Shown one piece after another: positions 5,766 through 13,353 of a stretch of 39,103 nt of DNA. The stretch spans positions 1 to 39,103 of the forward strand of contig CASGAS010000025.1 of assembly GCA_949299505.1 (NCBI GenBank). The letters run 5' to 3'. Numbering within the stretch: position 1 is the first letter of the stretch; each line of letters starts with the position of its first letter. The stretch comes from an uncultured Eubacteriales bacterium (GTDB lineage Bacteria; Bacillota; Clostridia; Oscillospirales; Acutalibacteraceae). Position numbers and translations under genes: made by a program. The notes beneath the pieces are model-generated. The model did not search any database, was not told the DNA's origin, and was given only the letters and a program-made list of their open reading frames with translations.

Positions 5766-7229
5766 TTACAGGCTTGTAACTTCCAGAAAGCGCTCGTATG
5801 CCGCGTCAACCTGCGACGTGGCCTGCGGTGTAAAAACCGCCGGGCGCACGCTGGCGCGCACCAGGGCGCGGGCGTCGGCAAGGCTGCGCAGCTGCCCGCA
5901 CGCCAAAAGCTGCAGCAGCACATTGCCGCAGGCGGTCGCCTCCGCCGGCCCCGCGTACACGGTTTTTTGGCAGGCGTCCGCCGCAAGCGCGCACAGCAGC
6001 GCGTCGCGCGCGCCGCCGCCGACGATGTGCAGCGCGTCGTACCGCTTGTGCGTGCAGTGCTCAATCTGACGCACCGCGAACCGGTATTTCATGGCAAGGC
6101 TGTCGTACAAGCAGCGCAAAAGCTCTCCCTTGTTCTGCGGGACGGGCTGGTTCGTTTCGGCGCAGTAGGCGCGCACGCGCTTCGGGATGTCCCCGGCCGG
6201 GACGAACCGCGGGTCGTCCGGGTCGATAAAGCACAAGTAGGGCTTCGCGCCGCGGGCAAGCGTTTCCATATCGGCATAGGTAAGCGTTTCGCCCTCGCGC
6301 TGCCACTGGCGGCGCGTTTCCTGCAAAAGCCACAGGCCGATGATGTTTTTCAAAAATGAGGTTTTCCCGCCGTAGCCGCATTCGTTGGTCAGATTGCAGC
6401 GGTACGCCTCCGGCGAAACGCACGGCGCGGACAGCTCCGTGCCCAAAAGCGACCAGGTTCCGCAGCTTAAGAACAGAAAGTCCTCGGTTTGCGCCGGCAC
6501 GCACGCCATTGCGCACTGCGTATCGTGCCCCGCCACGGCAACCACCTGCGCGCCCGGCATCCCAAGCTGCTCGCAAAGCGACGCGCGCAGAGGGCCCAAG
6601 GTCGTGGCGGTCGGCACGACGGCCGGGAACAGCCGGTGCGGAAGCGCCAGCGCGTCCAGTACACGCGCCGACCAAGTATGCGTCTGCGCGTCGAGCAGCT
6701 GCGTTGTGGAGGCGATGGAGGTTTCCGCCCGTTTTTCGCCGGTCAAAAAGTAATTGAACAAATCCGGCATCAAAAGCAGGGTGTCGGCCGCCTCGAGCAT
6801 TTCCGGACGCTGCGTCTGCAGCGCCAAAAGCTGGAACGCCGTATTGATTTCCATAAACTGGTTGCCCGTCACGCGGTAAAACTCGTCGCGGGGCAGGCGG
6901 CGAAACGCCTTTTCGAGCATCCCGTTCGTGCGCGCGTCCCGGTAGTGCACCGGGTTTTCCAGCAGCCGTCCGTCCCGGCCCAAAAGGCCGAAATCCACGC
7001 CCCAGGTGTCGACGCCGACGCTGTCGAAACGGCCGGCCTGCAAAAGCGACTGCTGCACCTCGTAAAACAGGCGCAGCACGTCCCAGTACAGCGTATCGCC
7101 GACAAAAACAGGGTCGTTGGGGAAGCGGCGCACCTCGTCAAGCGCCAGACTCTCCCCGTCAAAGCGCCCTAAGATTGCCCGGCCGCCGGACGCGCCGAAA
7201 TCCAGGCACAGGCAGCGCAGCGCGCTCAT
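5766..7229 (-). CDS. FGGY-family sugar kinase, RhaB-like; probable L-fuculokinase
   Basis: A 487-residue FGGY carbohydrate kinase. The N-terminal phosphate loop [14 protein letters not shown] is of rhamnulokinase (RhaB) type, as are [23 protein letters not shown] and [23 protein letters not shown] carries the catalytic Asp, and [12 protein letters not shown] is the C-terminal adenosine motif. By sequence it is closer to rhamnulokinase than to classical FucK, yet it lies between L-fucose isomerase and a class II aldolase with no rhamnose isomerase in view. Its job is therefore most likely ATP-dependent phosphorylation of L-fuculose at O1. The ATG overlaps the fucI stop by 4 nt (ATGA). Length is normal for the family. 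Confidence is high for a kinase of this family and moderate for the substrate. Confidence 0.88.
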
Positions 7230-9016
7230 TTATACAGCGGGCCGAACGCCGCGCAAGCGCGGAAATCCTGCCCCTCCTTATCCATGCCGAACGCGTTCCA
7301 GACCGCGGGCCGGAAAATCTCCGACTCCGGCACGTTATGCATGCACACGGGGATGCGCAAAATCGAGCACAGCGTGATAAGGTCCGCGCCGATATGGCCG
7401 TAGCTGATGGCGCCGTGGTTCGCGCCCCAGTTGTTCATCACGTCGTAAGCCGATTTGAACGCGCCCTTGCCCGTTACGCGCGGTGCGAACCAGGTGCACG
7501 GCCAGGTGTAGTCCGTCCGCTTCCACAGCTTGTCGGAAACCTCGTCGGGCAGCGCGACGGTATAGCCCTCGGCAATCTGCATAACCGGCCCCAGGCCCTT
7601 GACCAGGTTGAGCCGGCACATGGTCGCGGGCATTTCGGCGCGGGTCAAAAAGCGGGAGGAAAAGCCGCCGCCGCGGAAATAGCCCATATCCGCCGCGTTC
7701 CAGGTCGTCGCGTCCAGGCAGGCCTTGCAGTCGCGCTCGGTCATTTCCCAGAAGGGCTTTACCGCAGGCGCGCCGGACGCATCGCGGGCTTCGCCGCAGA
7801 AATCCAGGCAGGACGCGCCGGAGTTAATCAGGTGGATGAAGCCGCCCGCTTCGGCCGCCTTGCCCGTCAGCGTGTAGCCCGCCGCCTTTTGCACCGCTTC
7901 GGGGCTCCAGTAGGTGCGCACATCAGAGAACATCTGGGCGCGCCCGGTTAAGAGCTTGCCGAACAGCATGGACACGCCGTTGAGCGTATCGTTTTCGGTC
8001 GCAAGCACATAGGGCTCGCGCGCACCCGTCCAGTCAAACGACGAATTGAGCAGCGCCTCAGGGAAATCGCAGTTCGGGTAGCGGTCCGTCCACTGCCGCT
8101 GCCCCTGAAAGCCGCCGCACAGCGCGTTATGGCCGACCGCCTCCTCCGCGCAGCCCTCGGGCAGGTTGGGGTTGCCCGCGTAGAGGTCCTTGATAATGCA
8201 CATCATCTTGACGACAAATTCCCAGGCCTCTTCCTTTTGCGCGTCGGTCTTTTTGAACCAGTCGGGATTCTTGTCGAAGCCCTCCTTGCAGTGCGCCTTG
8301 GTCCACGCAAGCGCCTTTTGGAATTCCGCCTCGTCATAAATTTCCTCGTCCATGCGCCGCAGAATCTCGACCTCGTCGACGGATTCCACGCGCATGCCAA
8401 GGTATTCTTCAAAGAAATCGGGGTCGATAATCGACCCGGCAATGCCCATGCAAATGGAGCCTATCTGCAAATACGACTTGCCGCGCATCGTCGCCGCCGC
8501 CACCGCTGCCCGGCCGAAGCGCAGAAGCTTTTCTTTGACGTCGGCGGGAATTTCCGTCTCGTCGGCGTCCTGCACGTCGCGGCCGTAAATGCCAAAGGCG
8601 GGCAGTCCCTTTTGCGCGTGCGACGCAAGCACGGAGGCAAGGTACACGGCGCCCGGCCGTTCGGTGCCGTTAAAGCCCCAGACGCCCTTGATGGTGTTTC
8701 GATCCATGTCCATCGTCTCTGAGCCGTAGCACCAGCACGGCGTAACGGTCAGCGTAACGGCGACGCCCTCCTTTTGGAATTTCGCGGCGCACGCCGCCGC
8801 TTCCGCCACGCGGCCGATGGTCGTGTCGGCAAGGACCACGCGGACCGGCTCGCCGTTCGTATAGCGCAGGTTTTCCCGGAACAGCTGCGCGGCCGCCCTG
8901 GCCATGCCCATGGTCTGCTCCTCGAGCGATTCGCGCACCTTTAAGGGTCCGCGCCGCCCGTCGATGGTCGGCCGGATGCCGATTGCCGGATATTCGCCTA
9001 TATATCTGCCTGCCAT
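7226..9016 (-). CDS. fucI: L-fucose isomerase
   Basis: A 596-residue protein that follows E. coli FucI closely over its whole length (about 590 residues in the family). It converts L-fucose to L-fuculose and needs Mn2+. Family segments include [24 protein letters not shown] at the N-terminus, [22 protein letters not shown]-like [12 protein letters not shown], and [14 protein letters not shown]. The metal-site residues are present: Glu in ATENDTLNG, Asp in [10 protein letters not shown] and His in [13 protein letters not shown]. The start ATG at 9016 has AGGAGAGGAG upstream. It is the first gene of a fucI-kinase-aldolase operon, divergent from an AraC-type regulator. No fucose permease or lactaldehyde reductase lies nearby, so uptake and lactaldehyde disposal must be encoded elsewhere. 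Confidence 0.96.
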
Positions 9017-9129: not shown

Positions 9130-9972
9130 ATGCAACCGCCCGTCGTTCAGGAGCAAAAGCACCGGGGGACCTTTGCCTTTCCGCTTGAATTTCACCATGT
9201 GGACCAAAGCCACCCGCGCTACCATATGCCGCTGCACTGGCACATGGACTACGAGCTGGTCCGGGTGCTTGAGGGAGAGCTGATTCTTTCGCTCAACGCA
9301 AGAGGGCTGACGCTTGGGCCCGGCGACGCCGCGCTCATTGAAGAGGGCGTTGTGCACGGCGGCCTGCCGGGGCAGGGCTGCGTGTACGAATGCATCGACA
9401 TGGACCTGAACGAATTTCTGCGCGGGAACATTCCCGACTTTTCCGACACCGCGCGCACGCTTGACGCGACCTTTCCGCAAAACAGCGAAGAGCTGCGCAC
9501 CATCCACCGGCTTTTCGATACGGTCAAGGCCGGGCAAAGCGGCTATGTGCTGCTGGCGGAGGGGCTTATTTTGCAGCTTGCGGGACTGATTGTGCAAAAT
9601 CACCGCTACGTTTCCGGCGGCGAGCAGACCGCGCGGACGGCCAAGCGCGTCCGGCAGCTCAAAGCGGCGCTCGGCTGTATCCGCAAGCGCTATATGATGC
9701 CCCTGACGCTCGCGGACCTTGCCGCGCCGACCGGGCTTTCCCCGCGGTATTTCTGCCGGTTTTTCACCGAGATGACCGGGCGCACGCCGATTGACTATCT
9801 GAACTTCTACCGCATGGAGCGCGCCTGTGAGCAGCTGATTTACACACGCGAAAGCGTGACGGAAATCGCGCTTTCCTGCGGGTTTAACGATTTGAGCTAT
9901 TTTGTCAAGATGTTCCGGAAATACAAGGGAACGTCGCCGCGGCAATTTCGGAAAGGAGGGCAGACGCTTTGA
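9130..9972 (+). CDS. AraC-family transcriptional regulator, likely of the fucose operon
   Basis: A 280-residue regulator with an N-terminal cupin-like sensing domain and a C-terminal double helix-turn-helix domain. The cupin has HPRYHMPLHWHMDYEL and ALIEEGVVHG; the DNA-binding half starts near residue 180 with LTLADLAAPTGLSPRYFCRFF, and the second helix pair is VTEIALSCGFNDLSYFVKMFRKYKGTSPRQFRK. It is divergent from fucI across a 113-nt control region, so it most likely senses L-fucose or a fucose metabolite and activates fucI. A TTG codon in frame at 9118 lies on top of the ribosome binding site TGGAGG; the ATG at 9130, five nt after it, is the better start. The 3' end overlaps the decarboxylase-family gene by 4 nt, so both are co-transcribed. 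Confidence 0.92.
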   Translation: MQPPVVQEQKHRGTFAFPLEFHHVDQSHPRYHMPLHWHMDYELVRVLEGELILSLNARGLTLGPGDAALIEEGVVHGGLPGQGCVYECIDMDLNEFLRGNIPDFSDTARTLDATFPQNSEELRTIHRLFDTVKAGQSGYVLLAEGLILQLAGLIVQNHRYVSGGEQTARTAKRVRQLKAALGCIRKRYMMPLTLADLAAPTGLSPRYFCRFFTEMTGRTPIDYLNFYRMERACEQLIYTRESVTEIALSCGFNDLSYFVKMFRKYKGTSPRQFRKGGQTL

Positions 9973-11393
9973 GCAGCGAACTTTTGCAAATGCTTTTGGA
10001 GCACGCGAAAACCGGCGCATACGCGCTGCACATGCCGGGGCACAAGCGCAACACGGCCCTGCTCGGCGGCGCGCTTCCCTACGCGCTCGACATTACGGAA
10101 ATCCCGGATTTTGACGACCTGCACGCGCCGGACGGGGTGCTGCAGCGGTTGGAGGAACAGCTTGCCGCCCTTTGGGGCGCCAAAAAAAGCTTCGCGCTGG
10201 TCGGCGGCGCGACGGCCGGTATTCTGGCGGGCATTTCGGCGCTTGTCTCGCCGGGGGACACCGTCCTCGCGGCGCGCAACTGCCACCGCAGCGTGTATAA
10301 CGCCCTCGCCCTTACCGGCGCAAATCCCGTTTACCTCGTGCCGCCCATAGACGCGCAAAGCGGCATTTTGGGCAGCATTTCGCCGCAGCAGGTGGAGGCG
10401 GCGCTCGCAAAAAATCCGCAGACGAAGCTTGTGGTCGTCACCTCGCCGACCTACGACGGGGTGCTGTCGGACATAGCGGGAATCGTCCGCGCCGCGCACA
10501 GCCGCAAGGCCGCCGTGCTCGTCGACGAAGCGCACGGCGCGCATCTGGCCTTTACGGAAAACGCAGACAAAAGCGCGGTGCGCGCCGGGGCGGACGTGGT
10601 CATCCACTCGTTACACAAAACCCTGCCCGCGCTCACGCAATGCGCAGCCGCGCACCTTTGCGGCCCGGCGGTGTCGGCCGAGCGGTTCCGGCGGGCGCTT
10701 GCGGTGTTTGAGACCTCGAGCCCGTCGTATATTCTGCTGGCCTCCATTGCGGAATGCGCCGATTTTCTGGAGACGCAGGGCGCCGCGGCTTTTGACGCCT
10801 ACGCCGCGCGGCTTGCCGCCTTTTCCGACGCCTGCAAAGCGCTCGAGCGGCTGTATATCCCGGGAAAAGGGCGCGACGCGCACGAACGTCACCCGGCGTT
10901 TTTCGCCCTGGACGGCGGAAAGCTGCCCGTCGTGACCGCCCGCACAGCGCTGGACCGGGCCGGGCTTGCAAACAAGCTGCGGCAGGATTTTGCCTTGGAA
11001 AGCGAAATGGCGGCGGTCTCTTACACGCTGCTGATGACCTCCGTCTGCGACACGGACGACGCCTTTTCGCACATGGCCGCAGCGCTGCTGACGATTGACC
11101 GCGCCGCAGAGCCCGCCCGAACGCTGCCGGTGTTCGCGGCCTGTCCGCTGCCAAAGCGCCGCCTGTGCCCGCAAGAGGCCGCCGGGAAGGCCGGCGCGCT
11201 TTGCCCCCTGGAGGCGGCCGCCGGCAAAACGAGCCTCGAGACCGTATTCTGCTACCCACCCGGCATACCGCTGCTCGTTCCCGGGGAGGTTGTGGACGAC
11301 GCGGTCCTTCGCCACATACAAAACGCCGCCCGCCACGGGCTTGCGGTGCGTTCTTCGCGCGGGGCGCTGCCGCAAATCGCCGTTTGCGATTGA
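9969..11393 (+). CDS. Orn/Lys/Arg decarboxylase family PLP enzyme
   Basis: A 474-residue fold-type I PLP protein of the Orn/Lys/Arg decarboxylase major domain family, resembling the shorter YaaO/SpeA-type members of Firmicutes. Visible: YALHMPGHKRNT near the N-terminus (residues 18-29), NCHRSVYNAL, the PLP-ring aspartate motif VDEAHGAH (185-192), and the Schiff-base Lys217 in HSLHKTLPALTQ. The C-terminal domain is present but short, and there is no wing domain as in the large inducible decarboxylases. The likely reaction is decarboxylation of arginine, lysine or ornithine; which one cannot be told. The start is TTG (9969), overlapping the regulator's stop (TTGA), with AAAGGAGGG upstream. The pairing with an AraC gene is tight but may only reflect operon packing. 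Confidence 0.88.
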   Translation: MSSELLQMLLEHAKTGAYALHMPGHKRNTALLGGALPYALDITEIPDFDDLHAPDGVLQRLEEQLAALWGAKKSFALVGGATAGILAGISALVSPGDTVLAARNCHRSVYNALALTGANPVYLVPPIDAQSGILGSISPQQVEAALAKNPQTKLVVVTSPTYDGVLSDIAGIVRAAHSRKAAVLVDEAHGAHLAFTENADKSAVRAGADVVIHSLHKTLPALTQCAAAHLCGPAVSAERFRRALAVFETSSPSYILLASIAECADFLETQGAAAFDAYAARLAAFSDACKALERLYIPGKGRDAHERHPAFFALDGGKLPVVTARTALDRAGLANKLRQDFALESEMAAVSYTLLMTSVCDTDDAFSHMAAALLTIDRAAEPARTLPVFAACPLPKRRLCPQEAAGKAGALCPLEAAAGKTSLETVFCYPPGIPLLVPGEVVDDAVLRHIQNAARHGLAVRSSRGALPQIAVCD

Positions 11394-11421
11394 CAAAACG
11401 CGCGCGGTGTGCTACTATAAT
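11390..11421 (+). promoter_or_regulatory. Candidate strong sigma-A promoter for the SCIFF locus
   Basis: Perfect TTGACA (11390-11395) overlaps the stop codon of the previous gene. TACTAT follows at 17 nt (11413-11418, with TGC extended -10), or TATAAT at 20 nt (11416-11421). It lies about 30 nt upstream of scfA. Confidence 0.7.
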
Positions 11422-11451
11422 CCCGAACAAAACGATAAGGAGTCGATTGAT

Positions 11452-11604
11452 ATGAAACACATCCGGACCATTGAGACCCGCGACCTGAAGAAGAGCCTGG
11501 AAACCGGCGGCTGCGGCGAGTGCCAGACCTCCTGCCAGAGCGCCTGCAAGACCTCCTGCGGCGTCGCGAACCAGCAGTGCGAAAAGTGCATGGAACAGAA
11601 ATAA
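11452..11604 (+). CDS. scfA: SCIFF ranthipeptide precursor (variant with seven cysteines)
   Basis: A 50-residue peptide recognised as SCIFF (six-cysteine peptide in forty-five residues), a near-universal Clostridia peptide modified by the radical-SAM enzyme encoded next door. It keeps the leader (MKHIRTIETRDLKKSL, then ETGG) and core features CGECQTSCQSACKTSC. Cys are at 21, 24, 28, 32, 36, 43 and 46; the last one, in CEKCMEQK, is additional to the usual six. Position 37 is Gly, whereas characterised SCIFF peptides have Thr37, the thioether acceptor joined to Cys32. A ribosome binding site AAGGAG lies 9 nt before the ATG, and a strong promoter precedes it. Identity is very confident; the consequences of the substitutions are inferred. 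The mature function of SCIFF is not settled, with quorum or signalling roles proposed. Confidence 0.95.
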   Translation: MKHIRTIETRDLKKSLETGGCGECQTSCQSACKTSCGVANQQCEKCMEQK

Positions 11605-11627
11605 CCCGAAACGAACCGCACACTTCG

Positions 11628-11660
11628 GAAAAGCCGTTTTCAAACGGCTTTTCTTTTTGA
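11628..11660 (+). terminator. Intrinsic terminator / attenuator between scfA and scfB
   Basis: Perfect 12-bp inverted repeat: GAAAAGCCGTTT (11628-11639) and AAACGGCTTTTC (11642-11653), followed by TTTTTG. It sits 24 nt after the peptide stop and upstream of the maturase, so it should let most transcripts end after scfA while some read through. Confidence 0.85.
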
Positions 11661-11678: not shown

Positions 11679-13067
11679 TTGGTACACCAATACAAGCTCG
11701 GCGGCTATAACATTGTGCTCGACGTATTCAGCGGCGCGGTGCACGCGGTCGACGACGTCGCCTACGACGCCATCGCGCTGTATGAGACGACGACGCCGGA
11801 CGAAATTTGCAAAAAGCTGGCGGCAAGCTACGCGGAAAAAGGCGTAAGGGAGGCCGACGTGCGCGAGGTCCTCGCCGATATAGAGGCCCTAAAGGACGCA
11901 GGCTCGCTGTTTACAAAGGACGTGTACGCCGACCGCGCGTTTGACTTTAAGAACCGCAGCACCGTCATTAAGGCGCTGTGCCTGCACGTTGCGCACACCT
12001 GCAACCTCAACTGCGCCTACTGCTTTGCCGCGCAGGGCCGCTACCACGGCGAACGCGCGCTGATGTCCTTTGAAACGGGCAAGCGCGCGCTGGATTTTCT
12101 GGTGGAGCATTCGGGCACGCGCAAAAATCTGGAGGTCGACTTTTTCGGCGGCGAACCGCTGATGAACTTTGACGTTGTCAAGCGGCTTGTCGCCTACGCG
12201 CGCAGCATAGAGGCCGAGAAAAACAAGCATTTCCGCTTTACGCTGACGACCAACGGCGTGCTGCTGGACGACGAAGTGACGGAATTTGCCAACCGCGAAT
12301 GTCACAACGTCGTGCTGTCGCTTGACGGCCGCAGGGACGTGCACGACCGCCTGCGCAAGACGGTGGGCGGCCAGGGCAGCTACGACCTGATTGTGCCGAA
12401 ATTCCAGAAATTCGTGCAGCAGAGGGGCAACCGCGGCTACTATGTGCGCGGGACCTTTACGAAATACAACCTCGATTTCACCAACGACATTTTCCACATG
12501 GCGGACCTGGGCTTTACGGAGCTTTCCATGGAGCCGGTCGTAAGCAGCCCCGACGACCCGTACGCTTTGGGCGACGCGGAGCTGCCGGAGCTCTACCGGC
12601 AATATGAGCTTTTGGCCGAGGAAATGCTGCGCCGCAAAAAAGAGGGCCGCCCATTCACCTTTTACCACTACATGATTGATTTGACCGGCGGGCCGTGCAT
12701 CTACAAGCGCATTTCCGGCTGCGGGTCGGGAACGGAGTATATGGCGGTCACGCCGTGGGGCGATTTGTACCCCTGCCACCAGTTTGTCGGCGATGAAAGC
12801 TACCGGCTCGGCGACATTTGGAACGGCGTAACGAACGAGGCGGTGCAGCAGGAATTCAAGCTCTGCAACGCCTACGCGCGGCCGGAATGCCGCGACTGCT
12901 GGGCAAAGCTCTACTGCAGCGGCGGCTGCGCGGCGAACGCCTACCACGCGACCGGCTCGGTCACGGGCGTTTACGAGCTCGGCTGCAAGCTGTTTCGCAA
13001 GCGGATGGAGTGCGCGATTCTGCTGAAGGTCGCCGAAGCGCTGGACGCGGACGGCGGCGAAAAGTGA
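11679..13067 (+). CDS. scfB: SCIFF maturase, radical SAM/SPASM thioether synthase
   Basis: A 462-residue radical-SAM peptide maturase that installs a Cys thioether in SCIFF. Order of domains: a RiPP-recognition-like N-terminus (residues 1-90, YKLGGYNIVLDVFSGAVH), the radical-SAM core with CNLNCAYC (Cys108, 112, 115) binding the SAM cluster, the GGEP motif (FFGGEPLMNF), and a C-terminal SPASM domain with further Cys in ISGCGSG, DLYPCHQF, CNAYARPECRDCWAKLYCSGGCAAN. All cluster motifs look intact. The start is TTG at 11679, supported by AAAGGA upstream and by the family N-terminus; no ATG is available. It is separated from scfA by an intrinsic terminator and is followed 10 nt later by a small membrane gene. 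The enzyme looks fully functional although its peptide lacks Thr37. Confidence 0.95.
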   Translation: MVHQYKLGGYNIVLDVFSGAVHAVDDVAYDAIALYETTTPDEICKKLAASYAEKGVREADVREVLADIEALKDAGSLFTKDVYADRAFDFKNRSTVIKALCLHVAHTCNLNCAYCFAAQGRYHGERALMSFETGKRALDFLVEHSGTRKNLEVDFFGGEPLMNFDVVKRLVAYARSIEAEKNKHFRFTLTTNGVLLDDEVTEFANRECHNVVLSLDGRRDVHDRLRKTVGGQGSYDLIVPKFQKFVQQRGNRGYYVRGTFTKYNLDFTNDIFHMADLGFTELSMEPVVSSPDDPYALGDAELPELYRQYELLAEEMLRRKKEGRPFTFYHYMIDLTGGPCIYKRISGCGSGTEYMAVTPWGDLYPCHQFVGDESYRLGDIWNGVTNEAVQQEFKLCNAYARPECRDCWAKLYCSGGCAANAYHATGSVTGVYELGCKLFRKRMECAILLKVAEALDADGGEK

Positions 13068-13077
13068 GGGGACGCGT

Positions 13078-13353
13078 ATGGCGCTGTTTTTAACCGGATA
13101 CCTTGTCGTCGGCGTGCTGTGGATGCTTGCGGTCTATGGGCTTTCCTACAAGGAGGCGCCCGACAACCGCTGCCGCGTCGCGCTTTTGGTGCTCTATGTC
13201 CTCGCCATTCTCGGCGTGCTGTTTGCCACCGGCGCGCTGGAGGCGTTCGGCTGGAACCGGCTGTACTCGACGCTTGTCGCCCTGGCCGTGCTCGGCGGCA
13301 TTTACGCGGCGGACACGCTCGGCAAGCGCGCCCGGGAACGCAAGGGAAAATAA
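13078..13353 (+). CDS. Small three-helix membrane protein in the SCIFF operon
   Basis: A 91-residue hydrophobic protein with three predicted helices (about 2-22, 34-55 and 61-79) and a basic C-terminal tail (KRARERKGK), so the tail is probably cytoplasmic. I do not recognise a family. It begins 10 nt after scfB with TGAGGGGACGCGT before the ATG, and a bidirectional terminator follows, so it belongs to the SCIFF transcript. Small membrane proteins near SCIFF genes are known in Clostridia (for example TIGR04086), but this one cannot be assigned to that family by eye. A role in export, immunity or peptide handling is possible; that is inference from position only. Confidence 0.75.
   Translation: MALFLTGYLVVGVLWMLAVYGLSYKEAPDNRCRVALLVLYVLAILGVLFATGALEAFGWNRLYSTLVALAVLGGIYAADTLGKRARERKGK

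Follow-up and report, generated by a model that had tools for sequence, protein, structure and literature searches.

A SCIFF precursor with glycine at position 37 represents an old and widespread variant beside an intact maturase

The window analysed here is a stretch of 39,103 bp that carries a SCIFF precursor gene (scfA), its maturase gene (scfB) and, upstream of both, a gene for a PLP enzyme of the Orn/Lys/Arg decarboxylase fold (Table 1). The promoter-like site ahead of scfA matches the consensus at 10 of 12 positions and has a TG ahead of its second hexamer, with shuffled sequences giving 0.2 sites per region. The hairpin between scfA and scfB is possibly a partial terminator; the 76-nt stretch that holds it had a weak z-score of -1.5, and the consensus scan of the region did not report it. 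scfB is followed by a gene for a hydrophobic-looking 91-residue protein (13078-13353, + strand) without a Pfam or NCBIfam match, whose homologues were confined to a few loci from close relatives. On the minus strand, an L-fucose isomerase gene (7226-9016; 1045.8 bits) adjoins a gene for a rhamnulokinase-like sugar kinase (5766-7229; 438 bits, below the family cut-off of 528).

Table 1. Features of the scfAB locus in the window.
Feature	Position	Strand	Basis or remarks
PLP enzyme of the Orn/Lys/Arg decarboxylase fold, repeatedly found beside Gly37-type scfAB	9969..11393	+	PF01276, 181 bits; adjacency counts
Promoter-like site before scfA, sigma-70-type, TTGACA-17-TACTAT	11390..11418	+	Consensus scan only
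Likely ribosome-binding site AAGGAG, 9 nt before ATG	11437..11442	+	Sequence reading
scfA, SCIFF precursor	11452..11604	+	50 aa; Gly37, Thr26, Thr34, seven Cys; TIGR03973 and PF13165 matches
Cys32-Lys33-Thr34, proposed donor and acceptor	11545..11553	+	Conservation; putative acceptor role drawn from excerpts of reviews on CteA
Codon of Gly37, GGC	11560..11562	+	Sequence read and translation
Cys46, seventh Cys, CxxC with Cys43	11587..11589	+	Seen only among Gly37/Ser37 peptides
Hairpin of 12 bp in the scfA-scfB intergenic stretch, with a T run after it	11627..11659	+	Centroid structure
scfB, SCIFF maturase, radical SAM/SPASM, TTG start	11679..13067	+	462 aa; TIGR03974 and CteB matches

The scfA product, MKHIRTIETRDLKKSLETGGCGECQTSCQSACKTSCGVANQQCEKCMEQK, passed the curated cut-off of TIGR03973 (86.1 bits against 50), matched PF13165 with 86.8 bits and was the sole SCIFF match of its genome assembly. 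The six cysteines with conserved spacing within about 45 residues that characterise the family are found at positions 21, 24, 28, 32, 36 and 43; the peptide had previously been credited with these six, and Cys46 brings the number to seven. As the first-pass annotation had claimed, the residue after the fifth cysteine is glycine, in place of the threonine reported as acceptor in vitro, a residue that lies outside the family score cut-off. The maturase gene begins 74 bp downstream of scfA, and its product covered all 451 positions of the TIGR03974 model with 762.9 bits, above the curated cut-off of 425, aligned over residues 1-453 with CteB (PDB 5wgg; 566 bits) and contained both the CxxxCxxC and the SPASM cysteines, which upholds the view that the maturase is intact.

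Searches for SCIFF matches at four taxonomic levels, in overlapping sets, were positive in 220/300 genomes of the family, 215/295 of the order, 322/391 of the class and 319/398 of the phylum; the class figure shows that this RiPP system is very common in Clostridia. Within the genus, 23 of 39 genomes had a match, and all 23 peptides contained Cys32, Thr34 and Gly37, which rules out chance or sequencing error as the source of the glycine. The 16 genomes without a match, 11 of them among 27 good assemblies, suggest that the SCIFF system is dispensable in the genus. We assembled a non-random sample of 375 peptides, combining the 23 of the genus with the top-scoring loci of every search, 180 stretches picked for spread among the matches listed and 60 weak-match genomes included on purpose, 59 of which were usable (the remaining locus, L276, holds no SCIFF); no pair of loci in this sample shared 1-2 kb of identical DNA. 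A further 80 loci were chosen by similarity of their maturase to that of the window, and 79 of these were readable (all but L086). The two sets overlap, with 12 of the 80 loci identical over about 1 kb or more to a locus of the wider sample, and their counts were not summed.

Comparison with related SCIFFs shows that Gly37 is no oddity of this genome. It was present in all 79 readable closest-maturase loci, each of which also had Thr34 and Cys32, and in 105 of the 375 peptides (the genus set included), where position 37 was otherwise Thr (266), Ser (2), Ala (1) or a gap (1). The carriers include Ruminococcus bromii, several Faecalibacterium, Fournierella and Candidatus Fimenecus. In the stretch common to both, every 25-mer of L103 (Candidatus Fimenecus excrementavium) recurs in L006, a genome of the window's genus, which makes Candidatus Fimenecus the probable genus of the window. 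Across the 375 peptides, position 34 was Thr in 373 and Val in 2, and position 32 was Cys in 371, Ser in 3 and Val in 1; Cys21, Cys24, Cys28, Gln29, Ala31 and Lys33 were invariant and Ser30 was found in 374, so that within the span 28-37 more than rare variation occurred at position 37 alone. Asn40 and Gln41 were present in 368 and 370 peptides, respectively. All 105 Gly37 peptides had both Thr34 and Thr26, the latter being found in 141/266 Thr37 peptides, and 102 of the 105 had a maturase in the same locus. The CxxC motif ending at Cys46 occurred in 26/105 Gly37 and 2/2 Ser37 peptides of this sample and in 44/79 closest-maturase Gly37 peptides, and none of the 266 Thr37 peptides had any Cys in the 14 residues past Cys43. 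The Gly37 SCIFF is a widespread, old variant and the normal state in a large, mostly gut-dwelling group of bacteria.

The decarboxylase gene is a recurrent companion of Gly37-type scfAB. Among the closest-maturase loci of at least 7 kb it was found beside scfAB on the same strand in 48/55 (34 upstream and 14 downstream), and in the wider sample it lay upstream in 19/45 Gly37 loci compared with 0/130 Thr37 loci (loci of at least 3 kb with 1.5-kb flanks, a size at which a downstream copy is invisible); both counts ignore the kinship of the loci. Upstream and downstream copies belong to different sublineages, separated by a single change on a tree of 79, and 76 of 79 decarboxylases had the PLP-lysine motif. 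Decarboxylases were also sought in 30 genomes at an E-value of 1e-20, and in all but G092 and G059 their coordinates were compared with those of the SCIFF. Seven of the 12 SCIFF-bearing genus genomes that lacked an upstream copy were inspected, and in all seven the decarboxylase starts approximately 1.5-1.6 kb past the peptide, at the end of scfB; G172 and two Ser37 genomes, G054 and G183, share this arrangement, while in G068 the gene lies approximately 12 kb from the SCIFF and in G062 on another contig. In all six Thr37 genomes (G153, G073, G074, G116, G158 and G164) the homologues were on other contigs than the SCIFF. Eight of ten SCIFF-less genus genomes had no decarboxylase at this threshold, one (G021) had a copy and one (G023) had a stop-containing fragment; a single deletion that removed both systems together would account for these absences as well.

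FastTree analysis of 342 maturases placed all 100 Gly37 tips in one clade of 103 (support 99), which also held two tips with Ser37 and one with Thr37. A second, better tree of 61 rows retained the clade (SH-aLRT 100) and placed the Ser37 rows and three Gly37 rows with Asp107 near its base, with some forks open. On this topology, Thr37 was lost essentially once, long ago. The single Thr37 tip (L283, genome G121) appeared to be a reversal accompanied by restoration of Asp107 in the maturase, and we rejected it as a case of coevolution: residues ~31-150 of its maturase are closer to the Thr37 type and those from ~181 onward to the Gly37 type, and a Gly37 SCIFF is also present in the same assembly, approximately 530 nt from the end of contig C90. 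The G121 loci (L283/L464 and L465) are therefore likely an assembly chimera in which a Thr37-type maturase start is joined to a Gly37-type end; L283 remains counted within the 266 Thr37 peptides. We likewise gave no weight to a codon path from Thr (ACN) through Ser (AGY) to Gly (GGY); Ser37 is encoded by AGY in 4/4 cases and Gly37 by GGY in 96/105, yet GGY also predominates at Gly19, Gly20 and Gly22 of these peptides.

Comparison of 100 Gly37-type with 238 Thr37-type maturases identified 18 clade-specific positions, defined as those with one residue in at least 90% of the first group and at most 15% of the second. The residue just before the radical-SAM motif Cys108 is Thr107 in 91/100 Gly37-type maturases and Asp in 219/238 of the Thr37 type; others are Tyr331, Leu411, Phe439 and Ser350/Thr352, the last two beside Cys348, which, on our own mapping from the PapB cysteine assignments in excerpts of PMC10470005, would coordinate the first auxiliary cluster. 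Asp107 is kept in the two Ser37 maturases and in three basal Gly37 maturases, which fits a change at maturase position 107 later than that at peptide position 37. Four of the 18 positions lie within three residues of a cluster cysteine against 1.8 expected, which is not significant (p ~0.10). Because the clade has a single origin, the maturase differences are those of a co-inherited variant and coevolution is not provable from them.

One branch of the clade departs further from the family pattern. In four genomes (G054, G183 and G265, which are from one genus, and G1042, assigned to a different class) the single SCIFF match (loci L460-L463) is CGECQTSCQSASKTSCS, with Ser32 encoded by AGC in all four. 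These peptides lack both Cys32 and Thr37, such that neither reported bond is possible, and retain Cys21, Cys24 and Thr26; in each a Cys three residues past Cys43 keeps the total at six. Their maturases are full-length, matching residues 1-451 or more of the window ScfB at 675-689 bits, which suggests that at least one branch can do without a Cys32 ring and that such a ring is not universal even in this clade. Three further peptides were aberrant: L219, with Val34 and Thr37, lies in a 3.1-kb locus without a maturase match, and L235 (G105; Ser32, Val34, Asn36) and L240 (G136; Val32, Ser36, Ala37) adjoin maturases of 471 and 482 bits. The loss of Cys32 and Cys36 in the latter two may reflect a decaying or altered system.

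The consequence of Gly37 depends on which residue accepts the bond from Cys32. According to excerpts of PMC8326336 and PMC8172795, mass spectrometry of in vitro products named Thr37 as the partner of Cys32 in two SCIFFs, Tte1186a and CteA, and co-expression of CteA and CteB in E. coli (Hudson 2019) gave a Cys32-Thr34 link through the gamma carbon. The first-pass annotation had taken a gamma-carbon bond from Cys32 to Thr37 as established; each part of that statement has been reported, but the parts come from two conflicting results, and the gamma link was placed on Thr34. It had also noted, correctly, that a side-chain bond from Cys32 to residue 37 is impossible with glycine, and had held that numerous Gly37 homologues together with a published alternative acceptor would speak against its reading. 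The homologues exist in number; the published acceptor answers in part, Thr34 having been reported for CteA, which is not a Gly37 peptide. The literature searched, seen largely as excerpts, yielded no experiment on a Gly37 peptide, the excerpts of PMC6231123, PMC10470005 and PMC10352776 contained nothing on residue 37, and the titles and abstract openings among the literature matches listed named neither a Gly37 SCIFF subtype nor the decarboxylase neighbour.

Gly37 is ancient and clade-wide, no sampled Gly37 peptide has lost Thr34, and the maturase is intact, with residues specific to the clade. With Thr34 retained, a Cys32-Thr34 gamma-thioether is still possible, and the family-wide pattern, in which Thr34 is nearly fixed and Thr37 is replaceable beside an intact maturase, fits better with Thr34 as acceptor, though it is no proof. 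We infer the site of the bond, its chemistry and every mechanistic step, and a Cys32-Thr34 gamma-thioether would be the likeliest product of the window pair. The N-terminal recognition domain of ScfB would bind the ScfA leader, Cys32 would be held at an auxiliary cluster, the 5'-deoxyadenosyl radical would abstract hydrogen at the Thr34 gamma carbon, and ring closure would give the Cys32-Thr34 thioether; Gly37 would present no obstacle to maturation, as residue 37 would not be the acceptor. We give slightly better than even chances to the window pair being an ordinary, intact SCIFF pair that exchanged Thr37 for Gly long ago and closes its ring through Cys32 and Thr34. The in vitro reports of Thr37 related by the two reviews and the four clade members without Cys32 beside a full-length maturase both count against it. 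The invariance of Thr34 is also not specific, given that six other residues are fixed in 375/375 peptides, and Thr34 could be kept for recognition.

The Ser32/Ser37 genomes, with their retained Cys21, Cys24 and Thr26 and their full-length maturases, speak for a ring shifted to the N-terminal repeat throughout the Gly37/Ser37 clade, with Cys24 or Cys21 bonded to Thr26. Cys24-Thr26 has the Cys-x-Thr spacing of Cys32-Thr34, Cys21-Thr26 has the Cys-x4-Thr spacing of Cys32-Thr37, and Thr26, besides being universal among Gly37 peptides, shows no change inside the clade compared with 37 changes in the Thr37 part of the tree. Against this, the entire core is frozen in the clade: positions 19, 20, 22, 25, 27 and 39 are likewise unchanged, and leader position 9 shows none compared with 86. 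Thr26 is thus not singled out, and the essentially single origin of the clade leaves no replicates (an independent-pairs test found two pairs and no signal). We rejected Thr26 as a compensating acceptor on these grounds and keep it only as a rival, and an unlikely one. It also enters a broader and equally doubtful proposal, that the clade is a distinct ranthipeptide subtype whose cross-link moved off Cys32-Thr37, possibly to Cys21/Cys24-Thr26 in the N-terminal Cys-x-Thr-Ser-Cys repeat, with Cys46 added, a decarboxylase-like PLP enzyme recruited, and the Ser32/Ser37 peptides as its clearest members. The restriction of CxxC43-46 to Gly37 and Ser37 peptides would also accord with a clade without any thioether, whose cysteines bind a metal or an iron-sulfur cluster and whose ScfB has another role, but the near-constant presence of the maturase and the frozen core make this improbable.

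A bond from Cys32 to Gly37 itself would have to be of the sactionine-like alpha-carbon type. A glycyl alpha radical is chemically accessible; the clade's Ser32/Ser37 peptides, however, lack the donor, the maturase is a full ScfB, and excerpts of PMC11002830 group CteB and Tte1186 with the non-alpha linker QhpD, so we consider this very improbable. Only a small chance attaches to a bond from Cys32 to another downstream residue, Asn40 or Gln41: both are highly conserved, and Asn accepts in another ranthipeptide, NxxcA (Cys-Asn link; excerpt of PMC8326336), but both are also conserved in Thr37 peptides, where the reported acceptor is Thr. We found nothing in support of a decayed or misread gene, a notion refuted by the occurrence of the same residue genus-wide and in many genera beside intact maturases, and which we accord practically no chance.

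The site of the only reported SCIFF bond is disputed between Thr37 in vitro and Thr34 in E. coli, as excerpts of PMC8326336 and PMC8172795 relate. The Gly37 and Ser32/Ser37 peptides are natural variants that make this dispute directly testable, and they bear on the need for Thr37 and on Cys32 as the only donor. In view of them, ScfA peptides should not all be treated as equivalent, a caution suggested by an excerpt of PMC5300114. In Clostridium beijerinckii, disruption of the precursor and maturase genes of its ranthipeptide reportedly lowered expression of sporulation genes and raised that of the agr locus (excerpt of PMC8102284).

Compared with Tte1186a and CteA (thermocellin), the window ScfA shares the family match, the cysteine spacing, the CQSACKTSC core, Cys32 and Thr34, and a neighbouring ScfB, and differs in Gly37 for Thr37, in Cys46 as a seventh cysteine and in a leader with Thr9 and, across the Gly37 clade that shares it, mostly Arg10. 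Its maturase has the full-length match and cluster cysteines in common with CteB (5wgg) and the ScfB type of TIGR03974, from which it departs by Thr107 for Asp, Tyr331 for Phe, Leu411 for Phe/Tyr and Phe439 for Glu. The window ScfB falls far below the NCBIfam cut-off of the sactipeptide maturase RumMC (107 bits against 720; among the best 25 of 72 families), and at 280 bits it also falls below the PapB cut-off of 340. Freyrasin/PapB and NxxcA ranthipeptides, like SCIFF, have a radical SAM thioether to a non-alpha carbon, but their acceptors are Asp, Glu or Asn; PapB accepts Cys-Xn-Asp with n = 0-6, according to an excerpt of PMC9413430.
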